This document shows, piece by piece, positions 186 through 6,794 of a stretch of DNA of 64,000 nucleotides. The first letter of the stretch is position 1. Every line of letters starts with the position of its first letter. The notes below the pieces were generated by a model. It was not told where the DNA came from and did no database searches. It was given only the letters and a program-made list of their open reading frames with translations. Position numbers and translations under genes: made by a program. Source of the DNA: Chloroflexota bacterium (GTDB lineage: Bacteria; Chloroflexota; Anaerolineae; Anaerolineales; UBA4823); NCBI GenBank assembly GCA_029265355.1, contig JAJUJL010000009.1, positions 1 to 64,000 on the forward strand, in the 5' to 3' direction.

Positions 186-1637
186 TTAACCTTTGATGAC
201 AGCCACCGGCGCGAGGCGCGCCACTTTTCGCGCGATGCCCGCTCCTGTGACCGTATTCACCACATTGTCCACATCTTTATAGGCATGCGGCGCTTCTTCC
301 GCCAGCCCGGACATAGAACCCGCTCTTACCTGGATACCTTGCGCCAGCAGCTCACTGCGCAACTGCTCGCCGCGGATGCTGCGCTTGGCTTCATGGCGGC
401 TCATCACTCTTCCCGCTCCGTGACAGGAAGAACCAAAAGAGCGTTCCATGCTGCCTTGCGTACCAACCAGCACCCAGGACGCAGTGCCCATGCTGCCGGG
501 CACCAATACAGGCTGGCCGATCGGCCGATACTCTTCTGGCAGCCCGCTGAATCCAGGACCAAACGCACGCGTCGCGCCCTTGCGATGCACGCACACTTGT
601 ATGGCCTCTCCATCGATCAGGTGGGTTTCGATTTTTCCCATGTTATGGGCAATATCATATACCTGGTGCAGGCCAAAATTTTTCACTCTGCCAGCCAGGG
701 CTTCTTCGAAAGCCCGGCGGGCGAAGTGCGCCAGGACCTGGCGGTTTGCAAAAGCGTAGTTTGCTGCGCTGCGCATGGCGGCCAGGTAAGCCTGCCCTTC
801 CGGAGAATCCAGAGGCGCGCACACCAGCTCACGGTCGGGCAACTTGATATTATAACGTTGCACTGCCGACTGGAAAGCGTGCACGTAATCGGTGCAAATC
901 TGGTGGCCAAATCCGCGCGAGCCGCAGTGAATCTGTACTGCCAGGTTCCCTTCGACCAACCCCATCACCTGTGCGGCTTGTGGCTCAAAAATCTCTTCGA
1001 TGATATCCACCTCGATAAAGTGATTGCCTGAGCCCAAAGTGCCAATTTGCTCCCTGCCGCGTGCCTTGGCCTTGCTGCTCACTTTGCCGGGGTCTGCGCC
1101 CTCCAGTCGACCGTTCTCTTCAGTCCGGCGCAGGTCAGCTTCCGTTGCAAATCCCTGTTTGAGCGCCCAACGGCTCCCCTCGCGGCACACCTGGTCCAGT
1201 TCTTTCTCATTCACCCGCACATGCCCTTTGGTCCCCACACCGCTGGGGCAATAATAATCCAGCTTAAGAGCAAGGTCTGAGATATATTGCTGCACCTCCT
1301 CGTAAGCCACGCTCGAAGATAAGAGCCGCACGCCGCAATTGATGTCATAACCAATCGCTCCAGGTGAGATCACACCATGTGGAAGCCGTGTGGCTGCCAC
1401 GCCTCCGATTGGAAATCCATACCCCTGGTGCATATCGGGCATCACCACGACATGCCCCACTAAACCAGGTAAGGTCGCCGAATTGACCGCCTGCTCCAGA
1501 GATTTATCGTCCATCACCTGTTCGAGCAGCTTTTGGGTTGCGAAAATGCGCACTGGCACCTGCATGTCTTGCCGGTAGCTTTTTGGGATTTCCCATTCGA
1601 ACTCGCTGATCCGCTTTAAGTCTTTTAGCCCAATCAT
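186..1637 (-). CDS. rtcB: RNA-splicing ligase RtcB
   Basis: This is a 483-residue protein of the usual RtcB length. The family joins 2',3'-cyclic phosphate or 3'-phosphate RNA ends to 5'-OH ends using GTP and Mn2+. Visible signatures are [14 protein letters not shown] (about 66-79), GYDINCG with the metal-binding Asp98/Cys101, [18 protein letters not shown] and the C-terminal AHNMGK block that carries the guanylylated His region. The partner archease gene lies directly upstream on the same strand, 36 bp away, so the two are probably co-transcribed. Such pairs act in RNA repair or tRNA maturation. No intron-containing tRNA is seen in this window. Confidence 0.96.
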
Positions 1638-1673
1638 AGTTTACCTGCCTATCGAATGATTCCCCGGTGCTCG

Positions 1674-2084
1674 CTAGACATCGAATACGATTTTCACCCT
1701 CAACTCGTCCGGTTTCGAAAGAATCATGAGGTTATGATAGGTCACCGCTTTGATCTCTTTTTCAACACCCACCAGAGGTGCGCCAAGTAATTCCGCTTGC
1801 AGTCGGTATGGTTCTACCTTGAGCCTGTAACCTTCGATCAGCAATTTTTCCATCTCAGCCAGGTATAGCAGCTCCTGCAAAAAAGAGACCAACAGGCTTT
1901 CATAATCCACCGCTTCTATCGTCAGGCTGCGAGATTGCAGGGTATTCGGCTGGCTTTTAGCGCCACACATGGCGAACATGCCCCGCGCGGCCTGTTCGAA
2001 TAGCGTCTCGTAGTCAGGCGCCCACACTTCCAACTCCCAATCAGCGGTATGGGCATGCTCTCGGTAGCCAGAATTCTTCTCCAT
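1674..2084 (-). CDS. Archease (RtcB activator)
   Basis: The 136-residue protein has the archease start (HTADWELEVWAPDYETLFEQAARGM), a LLVSFLQELLYL segment and a C-terminal KAVTYH...LRVKIVFDV strand with the metal-binding Asp near the end. Archease speeds RtcB guanylylation and multiple turnover. The gene precedes rtcB in the same orientation. A possible promoter, TATAAT on the minus strand (2118-2123), sits 34 bp before the ATG. Confidence 0.93.
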   Translation of the reverse strand: MEKNSGYREHAHTADWELEVWAPDYETLFEQAARGMFAMCGAKSQPNTLQSRSLTIEAVDYESLLVSFLQELLYLAEMEKLLIEGYRLKVEPYRLQAELLGAPLVGVEKEIKAVTYHNLMILSKPDELRVKIVFDV

Positions 2085-2214: not shown

Positions 2215-2982
2215 ATGAATTTGAGCTACCTGAAAGCCAGGTTGGATGGCTTGGAGGCAAATCTCCAACAGATCGTTGAGGGCTTCGCCGTTCGTTGGCT
2301 TGAACCAGATGGCATGTTGGATGAAATGGTTCGCCAACTGGTAGAAGCGCTGCATTCTGGGTTAAAAGTGCTCACCGGAGATCAGATTGCTGCTCCTAAC
2401 CTGTTCATTATCCGAGCAAACCCTGCGCTCGCCAAAAAACTGCTCGCCCAACCCGCAGTGCTTGAGGAGATAACCGCTGCACTGCGCACCGCATTGGTGG
2501 ATAACGGCGCTCGACTATTAGGTCCGCTCTCGATTCAAGTGCTGGAAGATGAAGACGCGCCGCTCCGAGCCATTCAGGTGGAGGCTCAGATCAGACCGGA
2601 GAGAATTGCTCAAACATCGGATCTGACGCCCGAGGAAGGGATCGCAGCCGCAGCGCTGCCGACGAAGGCATTCTTGATCGTGGATGGCACCAGGATCTTT
2701 CCCCTGGATCGCGCCGTGATCAATATCGGGCGCAGGCCCGACAACCAGCTTGTCATCGATGACGCTCGCGTCTCACGCTTACATGCTCAACTGCGCGCCA
2801 TACGCGGTAGATATGTCATCTTTGACCTGGACTCCACGGGTGGCACATTCGTCAATGAGCATCGCATTCATCAATGTGTGCTGCATCCCGGCGATGTCAT
2901 TTCTCTTGCTGGCGTGCCCATTGTTTTTGGGCAGGATCTTGATACCACCGGAGAGACTCAGCGCCTGGAGCCGCCGAGCTAA
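2215..2982 (+). CDS. FhaA-like protein: DUF3662 plus C-terminal FHA domain
   Basis: The 255-residue protein begins with an FhaA N-terminal (DUF3662) region, about 1-125 (LEANLQQIVEGF...). After a linker it ends in an FHA phosphothreonine-binding domain, about 165-245, with GRRPDNQLVIDDARVSRLHA and a STGGTFVNEHRI turn. A good ribosome binding site (AGGGAG) precedes the ATG. The next gene is a second FHA protein, and an FtsW gene follows two genes later. This resembles the fhaA-fhaB-rodA-pbpA cluster of actinobacteria, where FHA proteins link Ser/Thr kinases to cell-wall growth. A role in wall synthesis here is inferred from that order. Confidence 0.85.
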   Translation: MNLSYLKARLDGLEANLQQIVEGFAVRWLEPDGMLDEMVRQLVEALHSGLKVLTGDQIAAPNLFIIRANPALAKKLLAQPAVLEEITAALRTALVDNGARLLGPLSIQVLEDEDAPLRAIQVEAQIRPERIAQTSDLTPEEGIAAAALPTKAFLIVDGTRIFPLDRAVINIGRRPDNQLVIDDARVSRLHAQLRAIRGRYVIFDLDSTGGTFVNEHRIHQCVLHPGDVISLAGVPIVFGQDLDTTGETQRLEPPS

Positions 2983-3000
2983 CCACACCACCACAATGGT

Positions 3001-3423
3001 ATGAGCGTCCAGGTTTTTCTCGTGCTTCGATTCGTAATTGCAGGGCTGCTGTATGTGTTCCTCAGCGCTGTGATCTACCTGCTTTGGCTGGATTTGCGCC
3101 AATATGGCAAGCGCGCCCTGCCCCAGATTCCAACCCCCATCATCATTCAACATGATCGGGAGGGCGAAATTTACCCCTTGCGCTTCACCGAACCAGAGAT
3201 ATTCATTGGGCGTGATGTGGCATGTCAATATGTTTTGGAGAATACCACCGTATCAGCCAGGCATGCGCGCGTCTTCTTCCGGCAAGGCCAGTGGTGGGTC
3301 GAAGACCTGCACTCGACCAATGGCACCTATCTTAACCAAGAACCCGTTGTCTCGCCTACCGTGCTGACCAGCGGCGACCAGCTACGCTGTGGTCAGGTGA
3401 TCCTATCCATAACGGTGGAATAA
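3001..3423 (+). CDS. FhaB-like membrane-anchored FHA protein
   Basis: The 140-residue protein has one N-terminal membrane segment (about 5-30) and a cytoplasmic FHA domain (about 60-138) with IGRDVACQYVLENTTVSARHA and LHSTNGTYLN, the usual phosphothreonine-binding loops. It starts 18 bp after the upstream FHA gene and shares its operon. FhaB of mycobacteria has the same plan and binds phosphorylated division proteins. No Ser/Thr kinase or PP2C phosphatase gene is present nearby. Confidence 0.86.
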   Translation: MSVQVFLVLRFVIAGLLYVFLSAVIYLLWLDLRQYGKRALPQIPTPIIIQHDREGEIYPLRFTEPEIFIGRDVACQYVLENTTVSARHARVFFRQGQWWVEDLHSTNGTYLNQEPVVSPTVLTSGDQLRCGQVILSITVE

Positions 3424-3492: not shown

Positions 3493-4356
3493 ATGAGTAA
3501 AATCAGTTTCGCTGTCATCGGAGGTTCTGGTCTGGAAAACATGCCCGGCCTGGAAGATATCCAGGAGGTCGAACCCCGAACGCCTTTTGGCCAACCGAGC
3601 GCGCCCATCGTCATTGGAACCTTAGCAGGTCAAAGAATAGCTTTCCTGGCCCGCCACGGCTCTGGGCACAAATTCTCAGCCTCCGAGGTTCCTTACCGCG
3701 CCAATATTTATGCTTTGAAATCACTGGGCATCGATCGGGTGATCAGCATCAGCGCTTGCGGATCGCTGCGCGAGGATTTTGCTCCCGGCGATATCGTGGT
3801 GCCCGATCAAATCTTTGATTTCACCCGGCAGCGCGCCCGCACCTTTTTCGACCAGGGCCTGGCCGTGCATATCGGTGTGGCGGATCCATTCTGCGCCGAC
3901 CTGAGCCGTCAACTTGTCCAGGCGGTCAAAGCCTCTGGCGGCGTGGTCCATTCAACAGGTTCGCTGATCACCATCGAAGGACCGCGCTTCTCGACCCGCA
4001 GCGAATCAAACGTTTTTCGCACCTGGGGAATGTCTGTGATCAATATGAGCACTGCGCCAGAGGTGTTCCTGGCGCGTGAAGCTGAAATGTGTTACGCGGT
4101 GATGAACCACGTCACCGATTACGATGTGTGGCACATCGCAGAAAAGCCGGTCAGCGTCGAAATGATCACTGAAGTGCTCCATCACAACCGGGAATTGGTG
4201 TTCAAGACCATCCACCAATTGGCGCGCACATGGAGGGCTGATCGTGATTGCGCCTGTGGGCAGGCGCTGGCTGGGGCGTTTATCACCCGCCCTAACGTGA
4301 TTTCATCAGAGGATCGCGAACGATTAAGGGTGCTGACCGGAAAATACCTGGGATAG
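3493..4356 (+). CDS. mtnP: S-methyl-5'-thioadenosine phosphorylase
   Basis: The 287-residue PNP/MTAP-family protein phosphorolyses methylthioadenosine to adenine and methylthioribose-1-phosphate. Signatures are the GGSGLEN phosphate loop (about 9-15), the family block ARHGSGHKFSASEVPYRAN (about 53-71) and GPRFSTRSE, with INMSTAPEVFLAREAEMCYA forming the purine and ribose sites. Ribosome binding site GGAG lies just upstream. It sits between FHA and FtsW genes, in the place a PP2C gene often holds in actinobacterial clusters. No functional link to the wall genes is evident. Confidence 0.92.
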   Translation: MSKISFAVIGGSGLENMPGLEDIQEVEPRTPFGQPSAPIVIGTLAGQRIAFLARHGSGHKFSASEVPYRANIYALKSLGIDRVISISACGSLREDFAPGDIVVPDQIFDFTRQRARTFFDQGLAVHIGVADPFCADLSRQLVQAVKASGGVVHSTGSLITIEGPRFSTRSESNVFRTWGMSVINMSTAPEVFLAREAEMCYAVMNHVTDYDVWHIAEKPVSVEMITEVLHHNRELVFKTIHQLARTWRADRDCACGQALAGAFITRPNVISSEDRERLRVLTGKYLG

Positions 4357-4376: not shown

Positions 4377-6794
4377 ATGCACATCCCGATGAGCACCAAA
4401 ACCGATGAACTCGAGCGCCGCCTGCTGTACATCGCAGGCGGGTTCTTATGCCTGTGGGCAGCAGCTTTCAGCCTGTCGCCTGTCGTACGAGCGCGTTCAT
4501 CCGCCGCCGGGCTGCGTTTGGATCATTGGCTGGTGGTGGGGGTTTGGGGGATGATGATTGGCCTCGTTCACCGGCGCGCCTCTCGCTGGATGCCCGACCG
4601 GGACCCGTTGCTGCTGCCTACCGCTTCCTTACTGACCGGCTGGGGCACGCTGACGGTGTGGCGTTTATTCCCAGAGCTCGGTTTACGCCAAACCGCCTGG
4701 CTTGTGGCAGCAGCATTCGCCTTATGGTTAGGGATGCGCTTGCCAGCAGATCTCTCCTTCCTTCGAAAATACAAGTACGTCTGGCTCTCGGCTGGCTTGC
4801 TGCTAACGGGTGCGACCCTCATCTTCGGTACCAACCCGCTTGGCGAAGGACCCCGCATGTGGCTGGGATGCTGTGGGCTTTACCTGCAGCCCTCTGAGCC
4901 GCTGAAGTTGCTCTTGATTATCTATCTCGCCGCCTACCTGGCAGGCTTTCAAATGGCTGGCAAGAATCAGCCGGCAGAGCGTGGTCCACTCCCTGGAAGA
5001 GCCTTGCTGCCTTTGTTGGCGCCAACCTTGTTAATGACGGGGCTTGCGCTCGTCTTGCTCGTCGCACAGCGGGACCTGGGCACTGCGACGATTTTTCTTT
5101 ACCTTTACGCAGTTGTTGTGTACCTGGCTACAGGCAAGCGGCGCATTCTTATTTTCACTGCCATCGCTGTGCTGCTGGCAGGTGTGCTCGGCTATCTGCT
5201 CTTCGACCTGGTGCGCCTGCGGGTGGAAGCCTGGTTCAATCCCTGGGCTGATCCATCGGGTCGCTCATACCAGATCGTTCAATCATTGATCGCCATCGCC
5301 AACGGCGGTATATTGGGGCGCGGCCCGGGGTTGGGAAACCCGAACCTGGTTCCGGTGCCGCATTCGGACTTTATTTTTTCTGCCATCAGCGAAGAGAGCG
5401 GCTTGATCGGGGCGATTGCCCTACTGGCGTTGGTTGGCATTGTCGCCCTGCGGGGGCTGCGCGCCGCGATCTTGGCGCCAGACTATTTTCGCCGCTATCT
5501 GGCCGCAGGCCTTTCTATTCATCTGTTGGGGCAGGCCTTGCTGATCGCGGCAGGAAATCTTCGCTTGCTACCATTGACCGGAGTCACTTTTCCCCTGGTC
5601 TCTTACGGTGGCTCATCGCTGGTCACATCCTACATCACCCTCCTCATCTTGATGAAAATCAGCGAACACAACGAAGAGACCCCGCCCGCGCATCTGGTCT
5701 CGCTCAAGCCATACATGATGATCGCAAGTGGGCTATCAGCAGGGCTGCTCGCAGCTTCACTGGCTGGCGGATGGTGGGCAGTGGCGCGCAGCACCGACCT
5801 ACTCGCACGCACTGATAATGCCCGTCGCGCCATTGCTGATCGTTTCGTCAAGCGAGGCGCAATCCTTGACCGCAACGGACATCCGATAACCGAGTCCAGC
5901 GGAACACCGGGTAGCCTGGTGCGAACCATCAATTATCCTGCGCTGAGCGTTGTCATCGGCTACAACCATCCTGTGTATGGGCAAACTGGCTTGGAGTCCG
6001 GGTTGGACGAATACCTGCGCGGTCAGAAAGGAATCCCTTTATACACCATCTTATGGGAGCAATTGCTCTATGGACAACCTCCACCGGGCTTGGATATTCG
6101 CACCTCGCTTGACTTAAAGTTGCAGGAGGCTGCTGACCAGGCCATGCAACATCAGAAAGGCGCGCTCGTGCTGCTGGATACCAGCAATGGCCAAATCCTG
6201 GTCATGGCATCACATCCTGGTTTCGATGGCAACACCCTGGATGAGAATTGGGAAAGGCTAGTTTCGGATACCTCAGCCCCCCTGCTCAACCGGGCTCTCT
6301 TGGGCGTTTATTCCACGCAGCAACTGCTGGGAAATTTGCTGCCTCAACATTTCCTGGCGCAACCCATAGAGATCCCCAGCCAGGTGGCGATGATGGGTGT
6401 CGCCGCGCCAGATAACCTACCTGAGCAAATTACGCCTATGCAGTTAGCTGCATTGGCTGCTGCCATCAGCCATCAAGGCAAGCTCGTCCCGCCCAACCTG
6501 GTCAATGCAGTCAACACCCCTCTGGCAGGCTGGGTGCTGCTGCCCAATGAGAACACGCCTGTGCAGATCATGGAGCCAGCCCTGGCGACAGAAATCTCTG
6601 CAAGGCTGCAAAACCCTGACGGATGGGGGTGGGAGATGACCACACAATCCGACGAAGCGACATTCTACCTGGGAGGCACCCTGGAATCCTGGCAGGGCGC
6701 GCCGCTGGCTTTAGCGATTGTGTTGGAAAAAAGCAACCCGATTGAAGCCAATCGGGTTGCTCAAGAGGTTTGGAGCGAGATCATGAGCCGGTGA
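4377..6794 (+). CDS. FtsW/RodA glycosyltransferase fused to a degenerate penicillin-binding domain
   Basis: The 805-residue protein has an N-terminal SEDS polytopic domain (about 15-440) with LGEGPRMWLG, AQRDLGTA, FSAISEESGLIG and PLVSYGGSSL motifs, so a lipid-II polymerase. A further membrane segment (about 450-470) leads to a PBP-like part with RGAILDRNG, GLESGLDEYLRGQKG and LLDTSNGQILVMASHPGFD. Where an active transpeptidase has the SxxK serine after LLNRA, this protein reads LLGVYSTQQLLG, and no KTGTA box follows. It therefore looks catalytically dead and shortened. The start could also be the ATG at 4389. FHA genes upstream suggest phospho-regulated wall synthesis. Confidence 0.88.
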   Translation: MHIPMSTKTDELERRLLYIAGGFLCLWAAAFSLSPVVRARSSAAGLRLDHWLVVGVWGMMIGLVHRRASRWMPDRDPLLLPTASLLTGWGTLTVWRLFPELGLRQTAWLVAAAFALWLGMRLPADLSFLRKYKYVWLSAGLLLTGATLIFGTNPLGEGPRMWLGCCGLYLQPSEPLKLLLIIYLAAYLAGFQMAGKNQPAERGPLPGRALLPLLAPTLLMTGLALVLLVAQRDLGTATIFLYLYAVVVYLATGKRRILIFTAIAVLLAGVLGYLLFDLVRLRVEAWFNPWADPSGRSYQIVQSLIAIANGGILGRGPGLGNPNLVPVPHSDFIFSAISEESGLIGAIALLALVGIVALRGLRAAILAPDYFRRYLAAGLSIHLLGQALLIAAGNLRLLPLTGVTFPLVSYGGSSLVTSYITLLILMKISEHNEETPPAHLVSLKPYMMIASGLSAGLLAASLAGGWWAVARSTDLLARTDNARRAIADRFVKRGAILDRNGHPITESSGTPGSLVRTINYPALSVVIGYNHPVYGQTGLESGLDEYLRGQKGIPLYTILWEQLLYGQPPPGLDIRTSLDLKLQEAADQAMQHQKGALVLLDTSNGQILVMASHPGFDGNTLDENWERLVSDTSAPLLNRALLGVYSTQQLLGNLLPQHFLAQPIEIPSQVAMMGVAAPDNLPEQITPMQLAALAAAISHQGKLVPPNLVNAVNTPLAGWVLLPNENTPVQIMEPALATEISARLQNPDGWGWEMTTQSDEATFYLGGTLESWQGAPLALAIVLEKSNPIEANRVAQEVWSEIMSR

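Follow-up and report, generated by a model that had tools for sequence, protein, structure and literature searches.

Comparison with relatives confirms as real a putative pseudo-transpeptidase that is conserved and fused to a SEDS polymerase in the Chloroflexota bacterium whose DNA was analysed here. This fusion of a SEDS domain with a dead PbpA-type PBP (pseudo-PbpA) is a variant form of the SEDS-class B PBP synthase, hitherto not described in the literature found. Throughout, the window denotes the whole 64,000-nucleotide stretch of DNA that was analysed, and coordinates given without a locus label are positions in it.

Architecture and predicted structure of the fusion gene

The gene encodes a SEDS domain followed by a transmembrane-type helix, a pedestal and the remains of a transpeptidase fold, laid out as follows.

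4377-6794, plus strand: SEDS-pseudo-PbpA fusion gene, a single uninterrupted ORF of 805 codons (805 aa) with no stop inside
4683-5675, plus strand: SEDS glycosyltransferase domain, aa 103-433 (Pfam PF01098, FTSW_RODA_SPOVE, E 4e-73)
5367-5369, plus strand: SEDS catalytic Asp331 in PHSDF, equivalent to T. thermophilus RodA D255
5706-5786, plus strand: transmembrane-type helix of the PBP part, aa 444-470 (a helix in the AlphaFold2 model)
5835-6101, plus strand: pedestal, or PBP dimerisation-type region, aa 487-575, with RG, GY, YGxxGLE and LRG kept
6102-6305, plus strand: N-terminal section of the transpeptidase fold, as far as LLNRA, aa 576-643 (from alignments)
6321-6332, plus strand: lost SxxK site, reading QLLG, aa 649-652 (from alignment with relatives)
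6426-6791, plus strand: C-terminal remnant of the transpeptidase fold, aa 684-805 (from Pfam and alignments)

The SEDS domain passes the PF01098 cut-off (246.9 bits against 26.4). An initial annotation, made from the window sequence, had called the polymerase FtsW-type, which proves imprecise: the NCBIfam equivalog models for FtsW (TIGR02614, 243.1 bits against a cut-off of 337.5) and for RodA (TIGR02210, 197.1 bits against 336.7) both match the protein, each under its cut-off. The gene is placed at a RodA-PbpA locus on the strength of the FHA-gene synteny described below and of the best fold match of its PBP half, which is PbpA. The equivalence of Asp331 and D255 was counted on the alignment with structure 6bar, taking chain position as residue number; the title of entry 6bas names a D255A mutant. 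In the PBP half, the PBP_dimer_2 model matches residues 493-571 with 26.3 bits, slightly under the cut-off of 27, and scores 37.4 bits in L157, a relative discussed below, while the PF00905 (Transpeptidase) match is weak (E 9e-8) and has its best stretch at residues 684-719. The SEDS part begins with an extended N-terminus, in which helices at residues 8-39 and 49-71 (window 4377-4680) lie ahead of most of the part aligned with RodA and FtsW; the structural alignment with these proteins starts at about residue 66-75.

Structure prediction, which the initial annotation had suggested, returned an AlphaFold2 model of the 805-aa protein with a mean pLDDT of 88.6 and a pTM of 0.85 (88.1 and 0.80 for the Levilinea protein), and it related the SEDS half to FtsW/RodA and the PBP half to PbpA of Mycobacterium tuberculosis. 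The latter supplied the top Foldseek matches of the model, and VIA-align superposed residues 487-804 on it (3upn_B) with Z 32.1 and rmsd 3.0 over 311 aligned residues. The SEDS half aligned with FtsW at Z 35.2 over residues 66-435 and with RodA/FtsW structures at Z 30-35 over about residues 66-436. A PBP fold with its pedestal is retained in the predicted structure.

Relatives of the fusion protein

Among 41 genomes drawn from the bacterium itself, its family and its order, 31 (its own counted) have their best match in a single frame of 717-973 aa; the others hold separate genes, a frame interrupted by stops, or merely distant SEDS matches. A contig scan found relatives in Anaerolineales, other Anaerolineae, Ardenticatenales, Thermoflexales and the cultured Levilinea saccharolytica KIBI-1 (best 80 of 494 matches), and a search across 399 genomes from the phylum added further loci (among the matches listed). 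The comparison set was assembled from loci among the matches listed and 40 hand-picked places from the phylum search, with 13 duplicates removed, and its 132 distinct PBP domains were sorted by motif into 95 dead domains and 37 active domains carrying SxxK, SxN and KTG. Because the search alignment was built from dead sequences, dead rows are over-represented in this set, which is biased towards them and is not a census. Thirty-five contig-scan loci (L079 and L085-L118) were omitted by number as mostly MrdA/FtsI-type. SxxK is present in 35/35 of these, so the omission hid no dead row; KTG is present in all except three that end at a contig edge, and L092 and L108 have SEDS upstream in a PbpA-like arrangement.

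SEDS and PBP lie in one frame at 88 of the 95 dead loci and at 0 of the 37 active ones. The PBP lies outside the SEDS frame in 7/95 dead rows, and for one of these, the dead PbpA-type ORF at L072:4851-6188, SEDS was not found in the fetched stretch; covalent fusion is therefore not required. In two genomes of family f4 the dead PBP is a separate short ORF beside SEDS (L037:2788-3885, 366 aa; L169:2830-3999, 390 aa).

Loss of the transpeptidase motifs

The absence of the SxxK and KTG boxes from the fusion protein, noted in the initial annotation, was borne out by alignment with active relatives. After LLNRA (R639) the protein reads VYSTQQLLGN, compared with YPPGSTFK in the active relative L082; TFYLGGT (aa 762-768) stands where the active protein has HAWFVGF, with the KTG box absent before it, and the region of the SxN subdomain is deleted or shortened. 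The reported likeness to class B PBPs holds as well, but it does not stop at LLNRA, since residues 684-805 still align and the model matches PbpA over residues 487-804.

SxxK is present in 0/95 dead and 37/37 active rows. SxN is absent from 94/94 dead rows that reach its region (L066 ends earlier) and KTG from 91/91 that reach its box (L018, L025, L028 and L066 end short of that position); each of the two is present in 37/37 active rows. At the SxxK columns of the 95 dead rows, Ser is found in six, Lys in one other and both in none. All 88 of the fused orthologues examined lack SxxK, which strongly supports the description of the domain as dead. Orthologues with an intact SxxK had been named as the sign of a local decay in this strain; no such sequence was seen among the fused orthologues examined, and the active homologues encountered are not joined to SEDS and branch outside the main dead clade. 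A replacement nucleophile or new active site was considered for a Cys pair seen in the long dead forms, and it is not proposed, because the same pair occurs in the active L082 (by eye).

Between LLNRA and an ITPMQ-like motif, 48 dead rows have 39-79 residues and 43 others have 95-141, compared with 128-158 in the active rows (30 rows). Given 15 changes between the short and long states among dead rows on the tree, the SxN-bearing subdomain appears to have been trimmed repeatedly. The shortest remnants of this stretch, 40 and 39 residues, were seen in L037 and L169.

Phylogeny

A tree of the SEDS domains, covering 124 of the 132 rows (eight loci have no SEDS match), united 93 of 94 dead rows in one clade with an SH-aLRT support of 99. 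Records in this main dead clade are named Anaerolineales, Ardenticatenales and Thermoflexales and include the cultured Levilinea. A second tree of 62 rows (35 of 94 dead and 27 of 30 active) was built on SEDS, pedestal and N-terminal PBP columns, with the motif columns left out, and it placed 34 of 35 dead rows in one clade (support 100/99). The best explanation is that PbpA ceased to catalyse transpeptidation in the common ancestor of a large Anaerolineae clade. The fusion state changes five times on the tree, from which it follows that fissions or repeated fusions occurred.

Just outside the main dead clade lies L157 of genome G048, with the active L167, from the window's class, between them in the best tree; a single origin of all 35 dead rows is not rejected (AU p 0.146). 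L157 is gapped at the motif columns by alignment, and its sequence, read directly by eye, is dead (PLAQ, GCP, KTG absent). This locus (L157:2986-5646), from another family of the phylum, also has a fused dead PBP and keeps more of the transpeptidase fold, with a PF00905 match of 80.6 bits over positions 1-297 of the model. It is possible that L157 represents a second, younger inactivation.

Conservation and selection

The SEDS catalytic Asp is kept in 94/94 dead and 30/30 active rows. In the pedestal of the dead rows, conservation extends to both residues of RG (R in 94/95, G in 95/95), the G of GY (95/95), the E of YGxxGxE (94/95) and the G of LRG (95/95), and greater variation is seen at the D of LDR (83/95) and the D of GLD (82/95). 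Substitution rates were compared using 83 of the 88 fused sequences and pairs more than 68% identical; in many pairs beyond the closest, dS was saturated. In the three closest pairs, dN/dS was 0.08-0.15 for SEDS, 0.04-0.17 for the transmembrane helix and pedestal, 0.09-0.21 for the N-terminal part of the transpeptidase fold and 0.11-0.32 for its C-terminal part, and the highest single value was 0.39. Every segment is under purifying selection in these three pairs, most weakly the C-terminal remnant. Mean pairwise identity across the 83 sequences is 54%, 46%, 51% and 33% for the same four segments.

Upstream genes and locus type

Three genes precede the fusion gene on the same strand, and the four are separated in turn by 18, 69 and 20 bp.

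2215-2982, plus strand: FhaA-like gene (FhaA_N and FHA domains, Pfam)
3001-3423, plus strand: FhaB-like gene (FHA domain, Pfam)
3493-4356, plus strand: phosphorylase-superfamily gene (PNP_UDP_1, E 6e-46), 20 bp upstream of the fusion gene

We take the phosphorylase-superfamily gene to be of the MTA phosphorylase type. On the other side of the FHA genes an RtcB RNA ligase gene adjoins them on the minus strand (window 186-2084), and its neighbour, a 136-aa minus-strand ORF, is presumably archease-like.

Among loci with at least 2 kb of upstream sequence, same-strand FHA genes were found upstream in 19/26 dead and 8/9 active cases, the nine active loci being from outside Chloroflexota; among loci with 1-2 kb the counts were 23/43 and 10/15. 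A phosphorylase gene stands directly upstream at 48/69 dead and 6/24 active loci with at least 900 bp upstream. The occurrence of FHA and phosphorylase genes upstream of dead and active loci supports the reading that the dead fusion occupies the same locus as the active RodA-PbpA pairs encoded by separate genes. At FHA-linked RodA-PbpA loci, pknA/pknB and pstP are found in the same operon. In the present genome seven Ser/Thr kinase-type matches were found, all of them outside the window; the contig begins just upstream of the locus.

Other PBP and SEDS genes in the genome

The assembly (5.05 Mb, 64 contigs, 98% complete) contains three SEDS genes, the fusion gene included. A whole-genome search (E <= 0.001) identified four transpeptidase genes besides the fusion gene: a class B PBP sharing contig C44 with one of the other SEDS genes, another sharing contig C34 with the second, an orphan class B PBP with a MecA_N domain on contig C40, and a class A PBP on contig C36. 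All three class B PBPs carry SVFK, SxN and KTGT. The initial annotation had seen no active class B PBP nearby and advised looking for a separate one in the genome. Both points held up: the fusion gene is the sole transpeptidase match on its 172,723-base contig, no other having been found there at E <= 0.001, and three class B PBPs with all motifs are encoded elsewhere.

MecA_N was found in 42/44 genomes with dead and 15/26 with active PBPs (Fisher p 0.0002), a count over the 70 genomes of the phylum sample whose locus had been retrieved that includes any protein carrying the match and assumes that the MecA_N search drew the same genomes. The dead genomes in which no MecA_N match was found are G048 and G270. 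Because the dead genomes are nearly one clade, the association amounts to a single comparison in descent; it is correlative and confounded by descent, and lends weak support to a functional link.

Proposed function and alternative explanations

Work with laboratory mutants had pointed to a role of class B PBPs as activators of SEDS enzymes that is distinct from their chemistry. For stimulation of E. coli RodA the transmembrane helix of PBP2 suffices, and an artificial fusion of RodA with PBP2 shows activity (PMC10449877; PMC6207328). ECL4 (SEDS loop 4) is the modelled target of pedestal action, which has been offered as the reason that FtsI is essential though its chemistry is not, and such complexes can be fixed in an on or off state by a single change in either SEDS or the pedestal (PMC8078798). 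In B. subtilis, PBP2B(S309A) supports division when the MecA_N-bearing PBP3 supplies cross-linking (PMC5656894). In C. difficile, dead SpoVD supports division only with its SEDS partner and is aided by PBP3 without catalysis by the latter, so that an outsourced cross-linker is not the sole known arrangement (PMC12713402).

It is proposed with moderate confidence that the fusion protein is a working glycan polymerase in which the fused pseudo-PbpA is kept as a structural activator, and that cross-linking falls to other PBPs. The system would be an FHA-linked RodA-PbpA pair in which the catalysis-less PbpA is usually joined to its SEDS partner in a single chain. The SEDS half would polymerise lipid II into glycan strands, as its intact catalytic Asp and fold suggest, while the transmembrane helix and pedestal of pseudo-PbpA would hold the SEDS extracellular loops in an active state. 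The pseudo-PbpA half may also dock regulators, and separate PBPs would cross-link the strands, the orphan MecA_N class B PBP being a good candidate by comparison with PBP3 of B. subtilis. A structural activator, as put forward in the initial annotation, fits the retained pedestal residues, the purifying selection and the published work on SEDS-PBP pairs; the activation itself is what we infer. Because the transmembrane helix stimulates E. coli RodA by itself, the pedestal and transpeptidase remnant may serve something other than basal activation.

Several other readings draw on the same observations. The transpeptidase remnant is kept well past the pedestal, and this, together with the seven kinase-type matches and the same-strand FHA genes upstream (19/26 dead and 8/9 active loci with at least 2 kb upstream), would suit a pseudo-PbpA that is mainly a sensor or docking platform for peptidoglycan, an MreC-like partner or another PBP, that reports to the FHA/kinase branch and for which SEDS activation is secondary. 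Such a role seems rather unlikely, as Pfam finds neither a kinase nor a known ligand-binding domain in the fusion protein and the C-terminal part of the transpeptidase fold is the least conserved segment (33% mean pairwise identity, versus 54% for SEDS). It is less probable still that the strands are left without cross-links or are used for a special envelope layer, which would have made a transpeptidase partner dispensable. The catalytic motifs are missing throughout the clade and the genome has two other SEDS genes, in keeping with this idea, but the other PBPs of the genome could do the cross-linking, and a partner no longer needed would be expected to vanish, yet this one is under purifying selection.

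There is little to recommend the PBP half as an autoinhibitory brake on the SEDS half: changes of one residue in SEDS or pedestal can switch complexes in either direction (PMC8078798), but the PBP partner of E. coli RodA stimulates it (PMC10449877). As for pseudogene decay or an assembly or sequencing error peculiar to this strain, the loss of canonical motifs and the shortening of the domain are what it would produce, but its probability is negligible against 95 distinct dead sequences, 88 of them in one frame, low dN/dS in the measured pairs and the grouping of 93/94 in one clade.

The preferred reading, a working polymerase that keeps pseudo-PbpA as its activator, can be extended in a way that is conceivable though doubtful. 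The large clade would have permanently uncoupled SEDS polymerisation from cross-linking by the partner, with pseudo-PbpA as an obligate allosteric component and the strands passing to the MecA_N class B PBP. Under this extension the SEDS enzyme, carrying a fused pseudo-PbpA, would therefore not itself be a beta-lactam target, and G048 may be a second instance.

The clade offers an apparent natural experiment on a large scale, in which the chemistry is gone and the pedestal and SEDS are kept, usually in one chain. The repeated deletions in the SxN stretch could show which portions of its PBP partner a SEDS polymerase depends on for support, and the fused chain itself is ready for use in structural work and assays.

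Comparison with known systems

In the open-access literature searched, no report of a SEDS protein fused to a naturally dead PBP was found. The T. thermophilus RodA-PBP2 and P. aeruginosa FtsWI complexes consist of two chains and have an active transpeptidase domain. The fusion protein shares with these complexes (6pl5, 8bh1, 8p1u) the SEDS fold, the catalytic Asp and a pedestal-type PBP. As in the PBP2B(S309A)/PBP3 pair of B. subtilis, a dead class B PBP occurs in a genome that also encodes a MecA_N class B PBP. PBP2B(S309A), however, is a laboratory mutant, whereas the catalytic loss described here is natural, old and clade-wide, and it is by inference that the MecA_N PBP would come to the rescue.

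Natural single-ORF SEDS-PBP examples have been cited to the Rhodococcus RHA1 genome (PMC10449877), and the present protein, like these and the engineered E. coli RodA-PBP2, unites a SEDS part and a PBP part in a single chain. The engineered fusion binds bocillin (PMC10449877), whereas the fusion protein of the window is without catalytic motifs. The RodA-PbpA locus of Actinomycetota likewise has FhaA/FhaB-type genes upstream and SEDS beside a PbpA-type PBP, and it is PbpA that the PBP half resembles most closely in fold. In the five Actinomycetota loci compared (from Rothia, Janibacter and Ornithinimicrobium), PbpA has an ORF of its own and carries all three motifs, whereas here it is fused to the polymerase and dead.
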